DNA from: a virus
Reading direction: 5' to 3' (one strand)
DNA length: 20,222 nt
IMG/VR virus record: IMGVR_UViG_3300021389_000209
Location: 1 to 20,222 of that record
The notes under the pieces are model-generated. The model did no database searches and was not told where the DNA came from. It worked only from the letters and a program-made list of their open reading frames with translations. Below are positions 1,815 through 13,062 of the stretch, one piece after another. The position numbers and the translations under genes were made by a program. Within the stretch, counting starts at the first letter, position 1, and the number at the start of each line of letters is the position of its first letter.

Positions 1815-2768
1815 ATGGCACAGCCAGCAAATACATACGACTCGTATGATAATGCGAATAGCATTCGTGAAGATATCCAAGATATCATTTACAACATTTC
1901 ACCAGATGAAACACCATTTTTATCTGCATGTAAAAAAACAACTGCAAAATCAACTTTGCATGAGTGGTCAACAGACACGCTAAGATCATCTGCGGCGAAT
2001 GCCCATATCGAAGGTGACGACAGTGCGGCAACAGCAATATCTGGTGTTACTCGTTTGAACAACAGAACGCAGATCTTTAAAGATGCAATTGTTATCTCCG
2101 ACACTGACGAAGGTTTATCAAAAGTAGCCAAGCAAAAGGAGATGAGTTACCATATCCTTAAAGCTGGGAAAACCATGAAATTGGATATTGAAAAGGCTCT
2201 TTTCGATAACAATGCTAAAGTTGCTGGTTCTGCAACTGCGGCTCGCGAGCTTGCTGGTGCGCCAACATGGTTAACATCAAACACTGTCAAAGGTTCTGGC
2301 GGCGCTGATGCTAATGGTACAGGTTCAAATGCTCGTACTGATGGTACTCAAACAGTATTCACTCAAGCTAAGTTTGACACAGTGATGCAGAGCGTTTGGG
2401 AAAATGGCGGAACAGGTTCAAAGACTGCATATTTGTCAGCATTTAATATGACAAAGTGTCTTGGATTTGCTGGTAACAACAACCAAAGAGCAAATGTGGT
2501 GGGATCTGATGAGAGAGTAATCAACTCAATTTCCATATATTTAACACCTTGGGGCGAGATATCGCTGAGGCCATCGAGAGAGAACAGATCACGCGATGTG
2601 TTCTTAATGCAGAACGATACATGGCAAGTGGCTACTCTACGTCCAATGAAAAACGTAGAATTAGCAAAAACAGGGGATAATTCGAAAAGACAACTAACCA
2701 CTGAACTCACATTGGTATGTACTTCAGAAGCGGCAAACGGCATGGTAGCTGATTGCACAACTTCATAA
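1815..2768 (+). CDS. Major capsid protein (SU10/DUF5309 type)
   Basis: A 317-residue protein. The N-terminus contains the segment DIIYNISPDETPFLSAC, and a TLHEWSTDTL segment follows near residue 50. Both are hallmarks of the SU10 major capsid protein family (DUF5309), an HK97-fold capsid protein of podoviruses. Later blocks fitting the family include the IVISDTDEGL segment, a KLDIEKALF helix and the C-terminal LRPMKNVELAKTGD strand. It assembles the icosahedral head around the scaffold encoded just upstream. AAAGGA precedes the ATG by seven bases, and the 38-base gap to the scaffold gene has room for a promoter but no clear one is seen. A perfect GNRA-loop hairpin follows the stop, which fits high, separately terminated capsid mRNA. 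Confidence 0.92.
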   Translation: MAQPANTYDSYDNANSIREDIQDIIYNISPDETPFLSACKKTTAKSTLHEWSTDTLRSSAANAHIEGDDSAATAISGVTRLNNRTQIFKDAIVISDTDEGLSKVAKQKEMSYHILKAGKTMKLDIEKALFDNNAKVAGSATAARELAGAPTWLTSNTVKGSGGADANGTGSNARTDGTQTVFTQAKFDTVMQSVWENGGTGSKTAYLSAFNMTKCLGFAGNNNQRANVVGSDERVINSISIYLTPWGEISLRPSRENRSRDVFLMQNDTWQVATLRPMKNVELAKTGDNSKRQLTTELTLVCTSEAANGMVADCTTS

Positions 2769-2780
2769 AACAACTATAGT

Positions 2781-2800
2781 AAGGGGGGGAAACCCCCCTT
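2781..2800 (+). terminator. GNRA hairpin after the capsid gene
   Basis: AAGGGGGG (2781-2788) pairs perfectly with CCCCCCTT (2793-2800) around a GAAA tetraloop, and is followed by the T-rich ATTTACTTTA. It sits 12 bases after the capsid stop and upstream of the next ribosome site (TTAGGAG). The T-run is interrupted, so it may be a leaky terminator or a 3' RNA stabiliser, either of which would raise capsid mRNA over the downstream genes. Confidence 0.75.
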
Positions 2801-2820
2801 ATTTACTTTAGGAGTGATTT

Positions 2821-3072
2821 ATGGCTACACCACGAAAAGGCAAAGCAAAAGCAAAAGTAGTTAATGGAAGAAAAATTAGCTATGGACAAGCTGGGCTTGC
2901 AAAAGATGGTAAGCCAAGAGTAAGAGCTGGCACAAAAAAGGGTGACGCATACTGCGCTAGATCTGCTGGTCAAAAGAAGAGATCTCCGAAGGCGGCTAAA
3001 AATCCGAATAGCCCATTGAATTTATCACGTAAACGCTGGAAATGTTCTGGCACTAAATCTAAGAGAACATAA
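2821..3072 (+). CDS. Small basic Lys-rich protein, DUF6321-like
   Basis: An 83-residue, very basic protein with a Lys/Ala-rich N-terminus, then GKPRVRAGTKKGDAYCARSA, and an NSPLNLSRKRWKCSG block near the C-terminus. The combination of GDAYCARS and SRKRWKCSG matches my recollection of a small conserved protein in marine phages and cyanophages (DUF6321-like), whose function is unknown. The two cysteines (in AYCARS and WKCSG) are the only ones. The composition suggests nucleic-acid binding, perhaps packaged or head-associated since the gene directly follows the capsid gene, but that is inference. A strong TTAGGAG ribosome site precedes the ATG. Confidence 0.75.
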   Translation: MATPRKGKAKAKVVNGRKISYGQAGLAKDGKPRVRAGTKKGDAYCARSAGQKKRSPKAAKNPNSPLNLSRKRWKCSGTKSKRT

Positions 3073-3073
3073 G

Positions 3074-3373
3074 ATGACAAGCTCGAAAATAGGCGAAAAG
3101 ATTGAAATATCTGACAATGGCGAAATTAATATAAAGCGCACATTTGATGGTAGCCAGATGATGCGTGACGCTGAATACGCTCGACAAAATGCAGATAATA
3201 GTTTTGGCTCAGATCATAAGCTAATTGCACAAGTTGATGCGGCTCTAATTGGCGTTTGGCTTAAAGAAGCTGGCGTGAGCTGGAGCGATACAGAGGCGGC
3301 TAATCAAGTTGTTAAAAGAAAATTAACGTCAGGCGAATTTGCTGACTTACGAGTATGGCAGGGAAAATACTGA
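3074..3373 (+). CDS. Conserved small head-region protein, unknown
   Basis: A 99-residue soluble protein starting one base after the previous stop. The first 30 residues are polar. A central DAEYARQNADNSFG segment is followed by DHKLIAQVDAALIGVWLKEAGVSW and a C-terminal LTSGEFADLRVWQGKY. This layout (short extended N-terminus, a HKLIAQ helix and a terminal helix ending in LR.W) resembles small unannotated proteins of marine podovirus-like phages near the capsid gene. There is no signal peptide, membrane segment or cysteine. It may be a minor head or connector protein, but nothing in the sequence proves this. Its stop overlaps the next start by one base. Confidence 0.75.
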   Translation: MTSSKIGEKIEISDNGEINIKRTFDGSQMMRDAEYARQNADNSFGSDHKLIAQVDAALIGVWLKEAGVSWSDTEAANQVVKRKLTSGEFADLRVWQGKY

Positions 3374-3597
3374 TGGAGATGACCGATCTATGGAGTGGCA
3401 CGCTCACATTCGCACTGGCGTTTGTGGGTTTTGTTTTACGCGGATATGTTCTAGAGTTGAATAGATTACAAATTCTGTTGAACAGAACGCGAGAGGAATA
3501 TGTGACCAAAGCTGATAACAGTGTGTCAATGAATAGATTGTTTAGCAGATTAGACGCAATAGACGCTAAGATGGATCGCATATTAGAACGGAAGTAA
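3373..3597 (+). CDS. Single-pass membrane protein with coiled coil
   Basis: I chose the ATG at 3373, which overlaps the previous stop (TGATG) and has AGGGA eight bases upstream, over the in-frame ATG at 3355. The 74-residue product has one membrane segment (about residues 7-27, LWSGTLTFALAFVGFVLRGY) and then a charged helix ending in a short coiled coil (RLFSRLDAIDAKMDRILERK). The build resembles small spanin-like or holin-accessory proteins and also virion membrane-anchor proteins, and I cannot separate these. It is the first of a run of membrane-directed or secreted proteins extending to about 7400. Confidence 0.7.
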   Translation: MEMTDLWSGTLTFALAFVGFVLRGYVLELNRLQILLNRTREEYVTKADNSVSMNRLFSRLDAIDAKMDRILERK

Positions 3598-3598
3598 A

Positions 3599-4150
3599 AT
3601 GCTACGTTTTTTTATAACAAGTTTTTTCATCATTTTTGGCAGTTTTGTTTATGCTGAAGATGACACAATAAATACCAATACTAATATCAATTCCAGTGGG
3701 TCTATGGATACAACTATACAAAGCCCACCACCATCAGCGATCTCACCACAAGTCAGCACAAGCGGATCTGATTTGTGCGTCGTGGGGATCTCAGGCGCAG
3801 TACAGACGCAGATATTAGGCATCTCTGGCGGCAAAACTGTGAAGGATCTAAACTGTGAGCGCATTAGAGCAAGTAAACTACTCAGCGATTTAGGAATGCG
3901 TGTAGCTAGTGTGGCTCTGTTATGTGTCGATGATAGGGTCAAAGAGGCAATGAAAAACGCTGGCACGCCCTGTCCAATAAATGGGAAAATAGGAGATGAG
4001 GCTAGGCTTGAATGGGAGATGAAAGCTGTGGAAGCGCGTATAAGTGAAGACCAGAAAAATCTAGTGGAAAGGCTTTTTGATGAACAAGCTGAAACAAAAA
4101 TTGGGCTGGGTGTTATCATTAGCACTTTGTTCTTCTTACTCTTACTCTAA
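3599..4150 (+). CDS. Secreted protein, signal peptide plus C-terminal membrane helix
   Basis: A 183-residue protein. Residues 1-19 form a Sec signal peptide (FFITSFFIIFGSFVYA, cleavage after YAE likely). A Thr/Asn/Ser/Pro-rich linker follows (20-55). The conserved-looking core (60-125) carries four cysteines in the contexts SDLCVVG, DLNCERI, LLCVDD and TPCPING, suitable for two disulfides in the periplasm. A charged helix (130-165) leads to a C-terminal hydrophobic tail ending in LLLL. The protein would cross the inner membrane, fold outside the cytoplasm and be anchored by its tail. The function is unknown. It opens a five-gene run of exported proteins. The last 71 bases also encode the start of the next gene in another frame. 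Confidence 0.8.
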   Translation: MLRFFITSFFIIFGSFVYAEDDTINTNTNINSSGSMDTTIQSPPPSAISPQVSTSGSDLCVVGISGAVQTQILGISGGKTVKDLNCERIRASKLLSDLGMRVASVALLCVDDRVKEAMKNAGTPCPINGKIGDEARLEWEMKAVEARISEDQKNLVERLFDEQAETKIGLGVIISTLFFLLLL

Positions 4151-4955
4151 CGCCGACCCATATAGTTATTGGGCGAGTACAAATGCCGCCAAAAATGGAT
4201 TGAGCTGGAGTATGTCATCTGTCTTGCCATCAATTGGCGGCGTAGACATAAATGGCCTGATTTACAGATATACTACAGAAAAAGAAACAGACGCAGATAT
4301 GAAGGTGACAGTCGGTAATCTAAACTTTGGCGGCGATGGTTACTTGTTCAAAGAAACTGATGATTGGTCTGGCGTGCCATCGAATACAATCACAAAGTCA
4401 TTTCCATTAAATAATATTCCGCTAGAACATTGGGGCGATGGGTCAATCACAGTTGAGGGTGATGGCACTGTTAAGGATGCTACAGTTGTATATACATTTC
4501 GCGTTGACGAGTGTTATGACCCACAGCTTAATCCAAGTTGCGCTGGGTATAAGAAGCCTATCCCAGAGATCCCAGAGGTTGAGGTTTATAATGCATTGGA
4601 AGATGACGCAGTTGTAGACGCAATTGAAGAGGAAGAATACGAATATCCAGACGAGGCTAAAATCCCAGAGGATGATGAAGACGATGACAAGCCAACAAAA
4701 ATAGAGCTGGGTTTGATGTCTTCTGAGAATGCATTGACTATGTTTCAAGATTATAATCAAAACGAGCTTATTAATATGATCAACAACCAAACCAATTTGC
4801 AAACGTACTATGATCTTGCCCTAAATGGTGGTATATACAAAGATAAGCATAAGTTAAGTCAAAAACAAATGCCAGATAACAAAAGAGCTTTAAGGGCTAA
4901 TTTGGCACAACAACTAAAGCATGAACAAATGGTAGACATGCAGTACAATAAGTGA
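4080..4955 (+). CDS. Secreted beta-rich acidic protein, unknown
   Basis: A 291-residue protein starting at the ATG at 4080 (GGAAAGG seven bases upstream); a TTG immediately before it is a weaker choice. Residues 1-24 form a signal peptide (KQKLGWVLSLALCSSYSYSN, cleavage near NA-DP). Residues 25-150 look like a beta-sandwich: SVLPSIGGVDINGLIYRY, WGDGSITVEGDGTV and VVYTFRVDECYDPQLNPSCAGY with one cysteine pair. Residues 165-205 are intensely acidic, and the rest is helical and Gln/Asn rich. The RVDECYDP...PSCAGY block recurs, in my recollection, in unannotated marine phage proteins found next to the same neighbours. The start overlaps the upstream gene by 71 bases. A surface or virion-associated role is inferred, not shown. 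Confidence 0.8.
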   Translation: MNKLKQKLGWVLSLALCSSYSYSNADPYSYWASTNAAKNGLSWSMSSVLPSIGGVDINGLIYRYTTEKETDADMKVTVGNLNFGGDGYLFKETDDWSGVPSNTITKSFPLNNIPLEHWGDGSITVEGDGTVKDATVVYTFRVDECYDPQLNPSCAGYKKPIPEIPEVEVYNALEDDAVVDAIEEEEYEYPDEAKIPEDDEDDDKPTKIELGLMSSENALTMFQDYNQNELINMINNQTNLQTYYDLALNGGIYKDKHKLSQKQMPDNKRALRANLAQQLKHEQMVDMQYNK

Positions 4956-4962
4956 GGTTAAT

Positions 4963-5454
4963 ATGAAATATTTAGCAATACCACTATTAGCACTAGCTAC
5001 ACCAGCTTTTGCAGATAGTGTCGATATAGTGGGCAACGTGTCTGCGAAATGTATAATCCAGACAACTAAAAGTGGTGTATTTGGATCTCCTACGGCAAAC
5101 AAGTTAAGTACAAGCCCAAGCGATGGCGGAATACATCCAGAGGTTAGAATAGATGTCGCAATTGCGAATAGCTACACAGCTAATATCACGCATCCAACAA
5201 CTTTTACCTCATCACCATCCCTAAATGACACTGTGACGTGGACAGGATCTGTCAGCGTTGTGAATACGAGTGACGCGGCTATGTCATCATATGACACTAA
5301 CAAGACGACTGCTGGGGCTACTACAAGCTACTCGTTAACAACTGCTGGCTCTACATGGTTTGCAATATCAAGCGTTGCTGAATATGGCGGTGGCAAGCCG
5401 TTTACAGGCGGAACGTATACAGCTCAGGCTACAATATCGTGTATACCCACCTAA
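4963..5454 (+). CDS. Secreted pilin-like protein (spore coat U / fimbrial fold)
   Basis: A 163-residue protein with a clear signal peptide (residues 1-17, KYLAIPLLALATPAFA, cut before DS). The mature part is almost all Thr/Ser-rich beta strands. It has one cysteine near the start (VSAKCII) and one at the very end (ATISCIPT). This is the pattern of immunoglobulin-like pilin and spore-coat-U subunits, where the first and last strands are linked or close. The last segments (WFAISSVAEYGG, GGTYTAQATISC) resemble a final pilin strand. The similarity is by pattern only. Such subunits normally need a periplasmic chaperone, and the next gene looks like one. GAGG precedes the ATG, and the 3' end overlaps the next gene by 16 bases. 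Confidence 0.7.
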   Translation: MKYLAIPLLALATPAFADSVDIVGNVSAKCIIQTTKSGVFGSPTANKLSTSPSDGGIHPEVRIDVAIANSYTANITHPTTFTSSPSLNDTVTWTGSVSVVNTSDAAMSSYDTNKTTAGATTSYSLTTAGSTWFAISSVAEYGGGKPFTGGTYTAQATISCIPT

Positions 5455-5831
5455 AAGCGATTGTAATTGCTACGTTATTGGGGTCTGGCGTATCTGCTCA
5501 CGAACAGACCCCAGCCTACCCAAAAAAGCAGTATTCCACAGTGAATGGGATTGTTAAATTTGAGCTATCAATTTTTAACTCAAGGGAAGAGGTAAAGTAT
5601 TACCAAATTGGTGTATTTGATAAAAATTTTGTGGGGCTTCCATTTTCGTCAAAATATAGGATAATGAAAGTCGATTACAAAACGAGAGTAAATTTTGATG
5701 TATATGTTAGAAAAGTTGATTTAGATAGGGCAATGTATATTTGCACAAAATCAAAACTGCTAAAAGATAACAAATCTAAGCCATTTGTGTCATCCTTGAT
5801 ATGCTCAAAAATTATGGAGAAAACTAAATGA
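5439..5831 (+). CDS. Secreted Ig-like protein, PapD-chaperone-like
   Basis: A 130-residue protein. No ATG fits the exported product; the GTG at 5439, inside the end of the previous gene, gives a complete signal peptide (LKAIVIATLLGSGVSA, cut before HE). The mature part reads like the N-terminal Ig domain of periplasmic pilus chaperones: FELSIFNSREEVKYYQIGVFD, FSSKYRIMKVDYKTRVNFDV, then two cysteines (YICTKS and LICSKI). A second chaperone domain is absent, so it is about half the length of PapD (roughly 215 residues). Adjacency to the pilin-like gene supports a chaperone-subunit pair, though it could equally be another Ig-fold surface protein. The gene is coupled on both sides by overlaps (16 bases before, 4 bases after, ATGA). 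Confidence 0.65.
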   Translation: MYTHLKAIVIATLLGSGVSAHEQTPAYPKKQYSTVNGIVKFELSIFNSREEVKYYQIGVFDKNFVGLPFSSKYRIMKVDYKTRVNFDVYVRKVDLDRAMYICTKSKLLKDNKSKPFVSSLICSKIMEKTK

Positions 5832-6220
5832 AATATGCAATCATTCTATCCTTAATTGCTGGCAGTGCATTAGCCGACAGCTCGTCACTTTCTCTGGCGC
5901 TACCAACGCCTAATATCAATACTCAATCTGATAGGATAAGGTCTGGTAGCATAGAATGCTCGAACTCTATCTCTGGGTCTACACTGCTAGAATATGGATT
6001 AACTGGGCTGATCTCTGGACTTGATACGAATGCTAGAGGTAAAGATATTGGCATTTATGCACGCATTGTCATTCCACTAAATGCGCCTAAGAAACGTATT
6101 GAATGCCAGAAATTATTTGAGGTTGAATTATTACAGCGCAAAATGGAAATACGCATGTTGCAGGAAGAGCTGAATGCAATGAAAAATCTGCAATCTACAA
6201 ATATGGAATTTGAGAACTAA
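5828..6220 (+). CDS. Secreted small protein with C-terminal coiled coil
   Basis: A 130-residue protein starting in an ATGA overlap with the upstream stop. Residues 1-16 form a signal peptide (KYAIILSLIAGSALA, cut before DSS). The mature part has a Ser/Leu-rich start and a block GSIECSNSISGSTLLEYGLT. Next come a strand-like segment GKDIGIYARIVIPL and KRIECQKLFEVEL, and a terminal coiled-coil helix. Two cysteines (IECSN and IECQK) could pair. I do not recognise a characterised family. The block resembles unannotated proteins that accompany the preceding genes in marine phages. Its position as last of the five exported proteins suggests a shared job. Confidence 0.75.
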   Translation: MKYAIILSLIAGSALADSSSLSLALPTPNINTQSDRIRSGSIECSNSISGSTLLEYGLTGLISGLDTNARGKDIGIYARIVIPLNAPKKRIECQKLFEVELLQRKMEIRMLQEELNAMKNLQSTNMEFEN

Positions 6221-6732
6221 TGGTCGATACAACTAAAATCGCGGATGGTATTGATGGTTTAGCTGAACGCCAACTACAAGCTGGGGGCATGAAGCTGACG
6301 GCTGGTTCTATACTAGCAATATTTGCATTCCTGTCTACAGTGGGATCTGGTCTATATGGTGGCTTGCTGATGTGGCAAAAGATTGAAGAGATTGCTGGTT
6401 TAGACATATCCGCATACCAACAACAAATGGATGTGATGGATGCTAAGGTTACAGGCATATCTGAGAAAGTCGAGGAAAGCGTCGAATACAGTCGTGATAT
6501 TAAAAATGGCCTTAAAGATGATCTGTTGCGGCTTGAGGGTCAAGTTGACAGAATTGAGGACATGGTAAGAAAATCTGAAGATAGCGTCAGGGAGATGATC
6601 GACAAGGCTGAGGTGCGCTTTGAAAATCAGAGAGAACGTGTTAGAGTTTCACAAAACGGCGAAATGAAAGAGCTGGAAGATAAACTAATGAAGAAACTAC
6701 AAAGGGCGCTGGATAACCCTCTGGCGGATTGA
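6220..6732 (+). CDS. Membrane protein with long coiled coil
   Basis: A 170-residue protein starting on an ATG that overlaps the previous stop by one base. Residues 28-51 form one membrane helix (AGSILAIFAFLSTVGSGLYGG), and residues 60-165 are an almost continuous heptad coiled coil rich in Glu, Lys, Asp and Met. There is no cleavable signal. Such architecture is seen in phage spanin-like, tail-fibre-anchor and structural membrane proteins. Lying between the exported cassette and the holins, it may link the two, for example as an inner-membrane spacer during lysis. No sequence family is recognised. Confidence 0.75.
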   Translation: MVDTTKIADGIDGLAERQLQAGGMKLTAGSILAIFAFLSTVGSGLYGGLLMWQKIEEIAGLDISAYQQQMDVMDAKVTGISEKVEESVEYSRDIKNGLKDDLLRLEGQVDRIEDMVRKSEDSVREMIDKAEVRFENQRERVRVSQNGEMKELEDKLMKKLQRALDNPLAD

Positions 6733-6733
6733 C

Positions 6734-7051
6734 ATGGATGAATTTAAAAAATTTGACGTAGATGGAAATGGCACGATTGATCAGGCCGAGTGGGATCGCA
6801 TGGCTCTGGAAGACAGGCGTTTAAAAATGTTAGATGACGATGCACAACGTGACTCGATTAGGTCGATGAGTTGGTTCGCATTGTTTGGAATGTTGCTATA
6901 CCCATTTGCCGTGATAGGCGCAGAAATTTTTGGTTTAACAGAAGCCGCCAAGATATTAGGCTCGATGGCAAGCATTTACTTTGTGTCTGTTGCTGGTATT
7001 GTATCTGTATTTTTTGGAGCTAACGCATTGGCGAAAGGAAAAGACAAATGA
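6734..7051 (+). CDS. EF-hand membrane protein, possible calcium-sensing holin
   Basis: A 105-residue protein. Residues 8-19 (DVDGNGTIDQAE) are a textbook EF-hand loop, with Asp8, Asp10, Asn12 and Glu19 at calcium-binding positions. A charged linker (20-42) leads to two membrane helices (about 46-66 and 75-97) and a short basic tail. A cytoplasmic or periplasmic calcium-binding loop followed by two transmembrane segments fits a small holin or holin regulator, and the gene immediately precedes a GTA-type holin. Calcium sensing in lysis timing is my inference. The ATG is one base after the previous stop; the end overlaps the next gene by four bases. Confidence 0.75.
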   Translation: MDEFKKFDVDGNGTIDQAEWDRMALEDRRLKMLDDDAQRDSIRSMSWFALFGMLLYPFAVIGAEIFGLTEAAKILGSMASIYFVSVAGIVSVFFGANALAKGKDK

Positions 7052-7407
7052 TTGGATTAGGATTAATAGGTCAAGTTGCCGATCTTGCTGGCACTATGAT
7101 TGAAGGCAAAACTGCTGTGAAGAAAGCAGAGGCGCAAACTAAAATGAAAATAGCGACAGGCGAGATCGATTGGGATATTGCCGCCATGAAGGCTACTGAG
7201 AATAGCTGGAAGGACGAGTGGATTACATTGCTGTTTAGCATACCCCTCATTCTGGCATTCTGTGGCGATTGGGGTAATGGCATTGTGCAAGCTGGTTTTG
7301 CGGCACTGTCAAACATGCCTGATTGGTATCAATACAGTCTAGGTGGTATTGTAAGTGCATCTATTGGGATGCGTGGTGTAAGTAAATATTTTGGGAGCAA
7401 AAAATAA
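7048..7407 (+). CDS. Holin (GTA-holin 3TM-like)
   Basis: A 119-residue protein with the features of the three-transmembrane holin family found in gene transfer agents and alphaproteobacterial phages. It has an amphipathic helix (residues 20-50), the KDEWITLLFSIPLILAFCG segment, then a second helix around NMPDWYQYSLGG (88-100) and IVSASIGMRGVSKYFG at the end. The W-DEW and P-W-Y pattern is typical of the family. It would form lesions in the inner membrane so that the endolysin two genes downstream can reach the cell wall. It overlaps the EF-hand gene by four bases and the next small gene by one base, so the lysis block is one transcript. Confidence 0.85.
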   Translation: MIGLGLIGQVADLAGTMIEGKTAVKKAEAQTKMKIATGEIDWDIAAMKATENSWKDEWITLLFSIPLILAFCGDWGNGIVQAGFAALSNMPDWYQYSLGGIVSASIGMRGVSKYFGSKK

Positions 7408-7574
7408 TGTCACTGTATGAAAACATTCATAAGAAGCGTAAGCGCATTAAAGCTGGAAGTGGCGAGACAATGCGTAAAAAGGGTGCTAAGGGCGCTCCAA
7501 CGAACAAGGCTTTTAAACAAGCGGCTAAAACTGCTAAGAAAAAGCCAACTAAACGTAAAACTAAAAAGGCATAA
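7407..7574 (+). CDS. Small very basic phage protein (55 aa)
   Basis: A 55-residue protein starting on an ATG that overlaps the holin stop (TAATG) and ending two bases before the endolysin ATG. It opens MSLYENIHKKRKRIKAGSGE, and about 40 percent of its residues are Lys or Arg. Short proteins starting with this segment are, as I recall, frequent in marine phage genomes next to lysis or structural genes. Their function is unknown, though the charge points to nucleic-acid binding. The tight packing between two lysis genes supports a real coding sequence. Confidence 0.8.
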   Translation: MSLYENIHKKRKRIKAGSGETMRKKGAKGAPTNKAFKQAAKTAKKKPTKRKTKKA

Positions 7575-7576
7575 TC

Positions 7577-8194
7577 ATGAGTGAAGCAATGAAAAAGCTC
7601 CAAGATAAAGTTGGTGTTGGGGCAGATGGTCATTTCGGCAAGAACACTGCAAAAGCCATTGCCCAATATTATGAGCTATCTAATGAGAGAGCCGCGCATC
7701 TAATGGGTCAGGCGAGCCACGAAAGCGGTCACTGGCGGCACACAAGAGAAAATCTGAACTACAGTGCCGAAAGTATGATGCGCGTCTGGCCTAGCCGTTT
7801 TCCTGATCTAGCATCCTGCGAGGGATATTCTCGAAACCCAACGGCACTAGCTAACAAGGTTTATGGTGGGCGCATGGGAAATAATACAGAGACTGATGGT
7901 TCAACTTACATTGGTCGCGGATTTCTACAATTAACAGGAAAAAATAATTACAGGGCATTCAGCTCCGATATGGGTTTACCTGAGATTATGACAGATCCAG
8001 ATCTGGTGGCTACAGATTACGCATTTGATACTGCGCTTTGGTTCTTCAAAAATAACAAGTTATTTGACATCGCAGACGATGGTGTGAACGACGAAACAAT
8101 TTTAAAAATCACACGTCGGGTCAATGGCGGCACACATGGGCTTGTGGATAGAACTGGCGAAACAAACAAAATCTATGAGTGGCTCAACGCATAA
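7577..8194 (+). CDS. Endolysin, GH19 chitinase/lysozyme-like
   Basis: A 205-residue enzyme. The first 30 residues include a minimal peptidoglycan-binding-like helix (LQDKVGVGADGHFGKNTAKA). The catalytic domain starts at LMGQASHESGHW, with the general-acid Glu49 in SHESGHW. Other GH19 hallmarks follow: the ANKVYGGRMGN block, the YIGRGFLQLTGKNNY motif (substrate cleft) and the terminal ITRRVNGGTHGLVDR motif. The domain cleaves the glycan backbone of peptidoglycan. It has no signal peptide, so it depends on the holin upstream. It uses ATG at 7577 after a short AT-rich gap. The 3' end is overlapped by 20 bases by the next gene. Confidence 0.93.
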   Translation: MSEAMKKLQDKVGVGADGHFGKNTAKAIAQYYELSNERAAHLMGQASHESGHWRHTRENLNYSAESMMRVWPSRFPDLASCEGYSRNPTALANKVYGGRMGNNTETDGSTYIGRGFLQLTGKNNYRAFSSDMGLPEIMTDPDLVATDYAFDTALWFFKNNKLFDIADDGVNDETILKITRRVNGGTHGLVDRTGETNKIYEWLNA

Positions 8195-8567
8195 CAATAA
8201 AATCGGTAGAGCTGGCGAATTTCTGGCTCTATCGAGATTATCATTCGCTGGCATTTCCTGCATCTTGGTTCAGCACGAAATTGACGATGCATACTTGAAA
8301 ACGCCAAGCGGTGTATTGCTGACTTTACAGGTCAAGACTGCCAGCAAGAAAACAGGAAATGCGCGGCAGTACAGGTGGAATACACAGCCCCTTGGAGATA
8401 ATAAAAAATCTGATGTGTATGCACTGGTGGCATATGATATAAAGAAAATTTACTGGGCTAGAGGTGACGATCCAATAATAAAGAAAACGTCAACTCGATT
8501 GTATCCAGATCAATTTGTAGATGAAGAAAAATTATTAAATCAAGTAATAAACAGCTTCACAGATTAA
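8175..8567 (+). CDS. PD-(D/E)XK-like nuclease, Holliday-junction/homing type
   Basis: The frame is open from 8124, but the ATG at 8175 (MSGSTHNNKIGRAGEFLALSRL) gives a sensible 130-residue protein and overlaps the endolysin by 20 bases. The domain has GRAGEFLALSRL (helix with the N-terminal Glu), a strand and EIDDAYL segment, VLLTLQVKTASKK (the Q-V-K strand, where Lys and a preceding Asp or Glu would be catalytic) and KKSDVYALVAYDI. This is the order of the PD-(D/E)XK nuclease fold. Related small nucleases include archaeal-type resolvases and group I intron endonucleases (PDDEXK_5). Its job here is open: resolvase, host DNA degradation or anti-restriction. A bidirectional hairpin follows the stop. 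Confidence 0.65.
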   Translation: MSGSTHNNKIGRAGEFLALSRLSFAGISCILVQHEIDDAYLKTPSGVLLTLQVKTASKKTGNARQYRWNTQPLGDNKKSDVYALVAYDIKKIYWARGDDPIIKKTSTRLYPDQFVDEEKLLNQVINSFTD

Positions 8568-12001: not shown

Positions 12002-12325
12002 ATGAGACTTTATAAAAATAATGCAGGACAATGGTTTGGCACTCAGGCTGAGGCACGTCGCAACTCACCCAGAGAATGGGTTGAGGTTAACGTCCCAACA
12101 TCTAAGCTGGATTTACTTAACTGGCTTAACGATAATAAAGTTGGTGGCATCAGCCAGCAAGTTAGCACTGAGCCAACTCCTGAGCCAAAAGGCGATTATG
12201 GTCAGCTCAACAAAAAGTCAAAAAGCTGGGTGTCTTGGGCATTGGGTAAATTGATCATGGGCGAAAAAGATGAGGCAATCGAAATGCTCAAGCTGGGTTT
12301 AGCCGAGCAGAAGGGGGGTGCGTAA
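12002..12325 (+). CDS. Conserved small early protein, unknown
   Basis: A 107-residue protein, first of the rightward early block, with ribosome site GAGGAGATTTGTT. It opens MRLYKNNAGQWFGTQAEARR and continues EWVEVNVPTSKLDLLNWLND. In my recollection a G-W-GTQAEAR start followed by a VPTDK-like block and short helix is recurrent in unannotated marine phage early proteins. A Pro/Gln linker joins it to a helical C-terminus (SWALGKLIMGEKDEAIEMLK). No enzyme motif is seen. Position next to the divergent promoter suggests very early expression. Confidence 0.75.
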   Translation: MRLYKNNAGQWFGTQAEARRNSPREWVEVNVPTSKLDLLNWLNDNKVGGISQQVSTEPTPEPKGDYGQLNKKSKSWVSWALGKLIMGEKDEAIEMLKLGLAEQKGGA

Positions 12326-13062
12326 TGGCTAAACTAAAAATCAAACCAGTTAATCACGGCACTACAAAAGCGGATCGAAACCGCTACTGTGGCGCGGCGG
12401 TTGTCAGTGCAATCACTGGTATGACAACAGGTGAGGCGGCAAGACTTGTCCGCCACCTCAGCGGTGTGAGAAGTGTCAAAGGCACTAGCACTCGCCAAAT
12501 CAGAGATGCATTTGCTGAGTGTGGCGTCCGCTTTGCACCGAGGTCATATGGTATGCGCCTTAACCGCACCAATGGCGTCACACTTGCAGGCTGGTTAAAA
12601 GGCACTGTGAAATATCGCAATGCAGAGCGTGTGTTCTTGGTTGTTGCTGGGCATCACTGGCAATTGGTTCAAGGCCGCAGATATGTATGCGGTTTGACTT
12701 GCGAGATCGTGAGCATTAAGGACAAGCGAGTTAAGAGACGCGCTAGGGTTTCTGAGGTTTATGAATTGACTTCACCAGATGGCATGGTCATACCTCATGT
12801 TGCTAAGAAGCCAAAAAACCCAAACGCTGGGTCAACTGCATGTAAGGCTAGGCGATTGGCTAAGGAGCTAGGCATTGAGATTGAGATCGAGCATTACTAT
12901 TCTGAAGGTCTTCGCAGATACTGGCTGGGTGGCTATGATGAGGGTGACGTGGATTACGCAGAGCTTGGGGTTATTGAAACTCACTTTGCCGACACATGGT
13001 CTGAGGCCGTTGACACATTGCAGGCGATCAAGGATTATAAGGCGCAGGCAATAGCGGCTTAA
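12325..13062 (+). CDS. Papain-like cysteine peptidase/transglutaminase-like protein
   Basis: A 245-residue protein that starts in a TAATG overlap. Residues 18-35 (DRNRYCGAAVVSAITGMT) look like the nucleophile-bearing helix of the papain-like fold, with Cys22 after a Tyr. A helix-rich region follows, and then VFLVVAGHHWQLVQGRRYVC (103-122), where His110 or His111 would be the base. A YCG...GHHW pair is typical of phage and bacterial papain-like peptidases. A C-terminal part (165-245) is a separate domain of unknown function. Substrates could be host or phage proteins; the early position suggests host takeover or anti-defence, but that is inference. A stable hairpin follows (13067-13096). Confidence 0.7.
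   Translation: MAKLKIKPVNHGTTKADRNRYCGAAVVSAITGMTTGEAARLVRHLSGVRSVKGTSTRQIRDAFAECGVRFAPRSYGMRLNRTNGVTLAGWLKGTVKYRNAERVFLVVAGHHWQLVQGRRYVCGLTCEIVSIKDKRVKRRARVSEVYELTSPDGMVIPHVAKKPKNPNAGSTACKARRLAKELGIEIEIEHYYSEGLRRYWLGGYDEGDVDYAELGVIETHFADTWSEAVDTLQAIKDYKAQAIAA

Follow-up and report, generated by a model that had tools for sequence, protein, structure and literature searches.

The locus examined here raises the question of why a phage should carry a run of consecutive genes for exported proteins behind its capsid gene. The window, meaning the whole stretch of 20,222 nucleotides analysed (IMG/VR virus record IMGVR_UViG_3300021389_000209), had been described in an earlier note as encoding five such proteins at 3599-6220, where a tail module should be, in a phage with no visible tail. 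The genes concerned (p1-p5) are given below with their two neighbours.

3355..3597, + strand: upstream gene, 80-aa transmembrane/coiled-coil protein directly before p1
3599..4150, + strand: p1, signal peptide, linker rich in S/T, domain with four cysteines, hydrophobic C-terminus; phrog_20531 (hypothetical)
4080..4955, + strand: p2, signal peptide, N-terminal domain with a cysteine pair, acidic linker, C-terminal domain as in the large secreted B proteins
4963..5454, + strand: p3, signal peptide, N-terminal strand VDIVGNVxAKC (conserved, low-confidence in the model), beta-sandwich
5439..5831, + strand: p4, GTG start, signal peptide, one beta-sandwich domain, cysteine pair in the last two strands
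5828..6220, + strand: p5, signal peptide, likely beta-hairpin segment followed by a C-terminal helix; phrog_37374 (hypothetical)
6220..6732, + strand: p6, a single transmembrane segment at the N-terminus, then a long coiled coil in the periplasm and a conserved NPL motif at the C-terminus; no cysteine

Export, gene order and spread of the cassette

According to a home-made heuristic, each of p1-p5 begins with a classical type-I signal peptide without a lipobox, and these signal peptides are kept in nearly every divergent relative, the signal sequences themselves being variable; p6 has none. The heuristic flagged 25 of 198 open reading frames in the genomes of four relatives, of which 18 were cassette genes and the other seven were scattered, several of them spurious, so that the cassette accounts for almost every credible call in each of the four. 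Since the flagged reading frames concentrate in the cassette in this way, five signal peptides in a row are not a matter of chance, and export of p1-p5 is well supported, as the earlier note had proposed. Cysteine pairs in the mature proteins had been reported for all but one of the five; the pairs are indeed conserved, but there is no exception (p1 60/86/109/125, p2 145/154, p3 30/160, p4 102/122 and p5 44/93), and the four cysteines of p1 are invariant across pelagiphages, roseophages and others. The p2 start lies at the ATG at 4080, inside a TTG-initiated reading frame at 4077. Coupling of the genes by overlaps or tiny gaps also extends to relatives, with median spacings from p1 to p5 of -74, +7, -16 and -4 bases. 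One p4 homologue (L008, 1852-2355) carries an internal tandem duplication of ~37 aa.

In searches with iterated profiles, the gene order p1 to p6 was kept without violation in all 94 nonredundant loci bearing p3; the set was complete in 72, and at no internal locus was a member missing. The neighbouring cassette genes were likewise present around the 29 p2 relatives wherever the contig extends. The secreted cassette thus travels as a set, and the possibility raised beforehand that the five genes rarely occur together is contradicted. The five-gene description was nevertheless incomplete, as p6 belongs to the cassette, which moreover splits into two modules. A protein similar to the 80-aa product of 3355..3597 also sits before p1 in roseophage CRP-810, and this protein is a possible accessory of the cassette. 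Matches to p3 were found in at least 575 viral contigs, and a collection of genomes from bacteria and archaea gave only three matching contigs. Contigs of 64-197 kb (L115-L117) that encode a phage primase and a thymidylate synthase bear the cassette as well, and the marine phages that carry it include ones with complete tails.

Existing annotation calls the cassette products hypothetical proteins almost without exception. Neither Pfam nor the PDB sequences gave a significant match to p1-p5 (Pfam had nothing at E<=1 for p1, p2, p4 or p5, and nothing in a curli family for p3), and no tail or virion protein family was matched either; a PADLOC search returned nothing for p1-p5 and weak coiled-coil matches only for p6. 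Two candidate assignments were rejected: matches of p4 to histone deacetylases were weak (E about 0.02) and are probably fortuitous, and a weak OEP match of the Erwinia phage homologue of p5 (E 0.0017), which might have made p5 one TolC-like hairpin unit, is absent in 19 marine p5 members.

The apparent want of a tail is due to the incompleteness of the contig. The window starts within the portal gene, of which only the 3' end is inside, and ends within terL (from 19325), and in the relatives G001 (29 kb) and G003 (39.8 kb) the region between terL and portal holds ~14 genes. These include short-tail structural, fibre and fibre-assembly families, among them an adaptor-like phrog_2941, the structural protein phrog_3287 (a "phage stabilization protein" in relatives) and genes for tail fibres and their assembly, along with the portal phrog_1216. 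The phage of the window is therefore short-tailed, with an SU10-type capsid protein, and because its tail genes sit in the terL-portal segment the cassette is no substitute for a tail; other phage types carry the cassette too. It is highly improbable that p1-p5 are ordinary tail or structural proteins with false signal calls: the genes do lie in the late region behind the capsid gene, but signal peptides and cysteine pairs are conserved across highly divergent relatives, the tail genes are elsewhere, and p1-p5 have no tail family.

By capsid and tail proteins, the nearest named genome is Octadecabacter Antarctic DB virus 2 (major capsid protein 60% identity), in which a search for the cassette genes found none. 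The host of the window phage is probably a member of the Rhodobacterales, with which the presence of p3 at 100% identity in a contig of a Rhodobacteraceae MAG is consistent without being proof. The contig ends of G003 (39,852 bp) repeat at an offset of ~36.65 kb and partly differ, which suggests that the genome is permuted, measures roughly 36-37 kb and varies in a segment that matches 9.5-12.3 kb of the window. Elsewhere in the window, 12325-13062 encodes a 245-aa protein with a papain/C39-like RYCGAA motif close to its N-terminus, recognised by eye only.

Two separable modules

The cassette consists of two separable modules, p1/p2/p6 and p3/p4/p5, with separate distributions. Matches to p1 extend to at least 597 viral contigs and to the pelagiphages HTVC202P, HTVC023P, HTVC033P, HTVC115P, Mosig and Baldr. 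In most other p1 loci examined, p1 and p6 flank one large secreted protein, B, so that the gene before p6 is p5 in the cassette and B in phages without p3-p5. The B proteins are mostly 450-1000 aa long with a variable N-terminus, and a signal peptide was called in 65 of 70; their C-terminal domain is homologous to that of p2 (hhalign probability 94.9%, E 4e-8). A large family of secreted marine phage proteins with variable N-termini and a conserved C-terminal domain of ~70 aa was observed in L160-L234 (e.g. L172 6519-8777 and L220 6356-9196); some of the N-termini resemble carbohydrate-binding jelly rolls by eye, and the six members tested had no Pfam or PHROG match.

The trio p3-p4-p5 is syntenic in 179 cultured Vibrio phage records, a number returned by tblastn with the p3 and with the p4 of Vibrio phage Ceto alike, and these phages are of T5-like, 60-kb and 83-kb types. 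Profile comparison of the marine and Vibrio families matched like with like, at a probability of 93.7% and E 2e-7 for p3, at E 0.004-0.006 with most of the domain covered for p4, and at 97.6% and E 4e-12 (hhalign) for p5, all off-diagonal pairs remaining at E >0.1. Triples of p4-like, p5 and p3-like genes with signal peptides and cysteine pairs were further found in Erwinia phage pEp_SNUABM_01 and Klebsiella phages Eowyn and FBKp24. Here a sequence link to the marine families was detectable for p5 (hhalign probability 95.3%) and not for the p3-like and p4-like proteins, so that the proposed kinship of these trios draws on the homology of p5 together with gene neighbourhood, the signal peptides and the cysteine pattern. 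A small lipoprotein-like gene comes after the trio in Vibrio phages Ceto and vB_VhaS-tm. In two unrelated Vibrio phage lineages (L055 and L336) a phrog_10818 gene lies directly upstream of the trio (2514-5078 and 2635-4947, respectively), with a small gene of the lipoprotein-like kind after p5.

Among other possibilities, the earlier note had suggested a delivery or attachment device added during lysis; the proteins, folded in the periplasm, would then join virions as a decoration or attachment device. The large phrog_10818 gene before the trio in two Vibrio phages is possibly tail-related, and the L115 cassette comes after virion structural genes; however, export through Sec would keep the products away from assembly in the cytoplasm, ordinary tail genes are present in these phages and no virion protein family was matched, which makes this explanation unlikely. 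For phiKp24, the main text searched makes no mention of virion mass-spectrometry data.

Predicted folds and co-variation of p3 and p4

Models of p3 and p4 were built with AlphaFold2 from 20-22 homologues (pLDDT 83.7 and 78.2, respectively) and compared to the PDB by Foldseek, the idea of a pilin and chaperone pair having been recorded before either fold-search result was read. The high-probability neighbours of p3 were mainly chaperone-usher pilin subunits (Caf1, FimG, CsuA/B, the PapG pilin domain, CfaB and PapA), with probabilities mostly of 0.97-1.00, E about 0.004-0.03 and TM scores up to 0.57 (0.49/0.57 against Caf1, 1p5v). Those of p4 included many PapD-family chaperones (SfaE, Caf1M, FaeE, FimC and DraB; probabilities mostly 0.97-1.00), which rank among or above antibody folds. 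Across both searches no PDB match fell below E 0.001, TM scores were about 0.3-0.57 and Ig-like folds are common; a BFVD search with p3 gave uncharacterised or scattered matches only, and hhalign detected no profile homology of p3 or p4 to the pilins and chaperones of E. coli K-12. As the two independent searches matched the two partners of one known complex, they support reading p3 and p4 as subunit and chaperone, and a pilin-like/chaperone-like pair of predicted folds is moderately supported.

In mature p3, the N-terminal stretch as far as residue 26 combines low model confidence with invariance at several positions, which a donor strand would be expected to show. A pilin donor-strand pattern, picked after both p3 and pilin sequences had been viewed, matched 41 of 41 p3 sequences and 12 of 12 E. 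coli pilins as against 22 of 1973 other exported N-termini. The mature part of p4 (~110 aa) forms one domain where PapD chaperones have two, and its cysteine pair in the last two strands recalls the F1-G1 disulfide of FGL chaperones. No usher-sized gene (a barrel of ~800 aa) was present, the relatives' gene maps containing no open reading frame above 692 aa. Given this and the want of a profile link to pilins and chaperones, the cassette was not filed as a chaperone-usher system, though it may work like part of one.

A different reading of the same models is that p4 is a metal-binding domain of Cu-SOD or CopC-like type, p3 an unrelated beta-sandwich and the pilin and chaperone likeness a generic coincidence of Ig folds. 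The top Foldseek match of p4 is in fact the Cu-only SOD subunit DR_0644, and mature p4 begins with His in the marine family and in the Erwinia and Eowyn homologues; however, a second invariant His is absent, the Vibrio homologues begin with Leu and many further fold matches are chaperones, leaving this reading unlikely.

Across 18 close relatives, the protein distances of p3 and p4 were correlated at r = 0.95, compared with 0.12-0.57 for every other pair, and after removal of the shared background the correlation stood at r = 0.945 (permutation p = 0.0005). DNA identity between the window and its relative L006 is 69-80% across ~5000-5900, i.e. the p3-p4 block, and mostly 83-96% around it. The alignments thus indicate that p3 and p4 are exchanged as one allelic block. 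Their co-variation may reflect only the linkage of overlapping genes; other overlapping neighbours lack co-variation of this type.

Lysis context, proposed function and known systems

The cassette lies between a terminator-like hairpin and the lysis genes, as follows.

2782..2800, + strand: terminator-like hairpin behind the major capsid gene and ahead of the cassette
6734-7051, + strand: EF-hand membrane protein, adjoining the cassette in the lysis region
7048-7407, + strand: putative holin, lysis region
7407-7574, + strand: basic 55-aa protein, lysis region
7577-8194, + strand: GH19-type endolysin, lysis region

Nearly all relatives, Octadecabacter virus DB2 among them, have a strong hairpin behind the capsid gene, with very different or unrelated stem sequences. 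The next + strand terminator-like hairpin in the window (8203-8235) is directly past the endolysin gene, and since none intervenes, the cassette is probably expressed late, together with the lysis genes. Most contigs with the cassette contain relatives of the EF-hand and transmembrane protein, and behind p6 in L115, L117 and L160, too, an EF-hand-like membrane protein was seen by eye. The endolysin gene is overlapped by 71 bases by that of a 147-aa protein (8124-8567, phrog_5018) that by eye resembles a nuclease-type fold.

One explanation of this setting is a lysis accessory, in which the exported proteins and p6 would weaken or bridge the outer envelope after holin and endolysin have acted, in the manner of a spanin or disruptin. 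It draws on the position of the cassette between the post-capsid hairpin and the endolysin gene, on the holin and endolysin genes adjoining it in many relatives and on the i-spanin topology of p6. However, L115 carries the cassette plus a separate Rz-like gene overlapping a lipoprotein gene (a pair like the Rz/Rz1 spanins), which rules out a spanin as the sole role, and the trio has no recognised lysis genes beside it in Vibrio phage vB_VhaS-tm or in Klebsiella phages FBKp24 and Eowyn. On these two grounds an alteration of the envelope or surface is favoured, with modest confidence, over lysis, which stays a possible but lesser candidate.

The best explanation, held tentatively at a probability of roughly 0.4, is that the cassette is a mobile module encoding a late envelope complex, neither tail nor spanin, with a subunit/chaperone-like pair p3/p4, that alters the surface of the infected cell. 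Its products would leave the cytoplasm via Sec and assemble in or on the envelope of the infected Gram-negative host. From the predicted folds, p3 would be an incomplete Ig-like subunit resembling a chaperone-usher pilin, with a flexible, conserved N-terminal strand, and p4 a PapD-like chaperone or cap with a single domain, completing p3 until handover to another p3 or partner. From sequence pattern, p5 (hairpin and helix) may be an outer-envelope anchor or pore, p6 may anchor the complex in the inner membrane and p2 may be its exposed variable part. The likely effect late in infection would be a changed cell surface, i.e. receptor masking, superinfection exclusion or aggregation. More specifically, lytic phages of several unrelated lineages might use a minimal, usher-less subunit/chaperone (donor-strand) system to build an envelope fibre or coat with p5 as its outer-envelope anchor or pore, which is a doubtful proposition at present.

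Whatever its function, an exported module of sequence orphans that has a fixed order in all sampled loci, is present in hundreds of marine viral contigs at the least and has syntenic counterparts among cultured phages must be important to infection, and the Vibrio phage trio offers a route to testing it. The open-licence literature yielded nothing relevant on phage-encoded donor-strand or chaperone-usher systems or on exported proteins of T5-like Vibrio phages, which does not prove absence.

Among known systems, the Rz/Rz1 spanins share with the cassette the i-spanin topology of p6 and the nearness to holin and endolysin; in contrast to them, p6 has no overlapping lipoprotein partner and coexists with a separate spanin-like pair in L115. 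Llp of phage T5 is a receptor-masking lipoprotein and a small exported late phage protein. It resembles the cassette products in size, export and timing and recalls the small lipoprotein-like gene behind the trio in Ceto and vB_VhaS-tm, whereas the cassette is multigene and p1-p5 have no lipobox. Chaperone-usher systems (FimA/FimC, Caf1/Caf1M and CsuA/B/CsuC) share with the cassette an adjacent pair of exported subunit-like and chaperone-like proteins with the nearest folds on both sides, as well as a donor-strand-like motif at the p3 N-terminus; they differ in that the cassette has no usher gene, a one-domain p4 and no sequence homology, is viral and is linked to p1, p2, p5 and p6. Were the pilin/chaperone reading true, phages would build envelope structures by donor-strand complementation. 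The nearest precedent is curli (type VIII secretion) encoded by pelagiphages and phages of the Melnitz type, for which aggregation, superinfection defence and lysis timing have been proposed (PMC9599517, PMC9004378). No CsgG, CsgF or CsgA/B family was recognised among the cassette proteins, but in both cases marine lytic phages carry a multigene envelope or secretion module, exchanged in the curli case between podo- and myoviruses.
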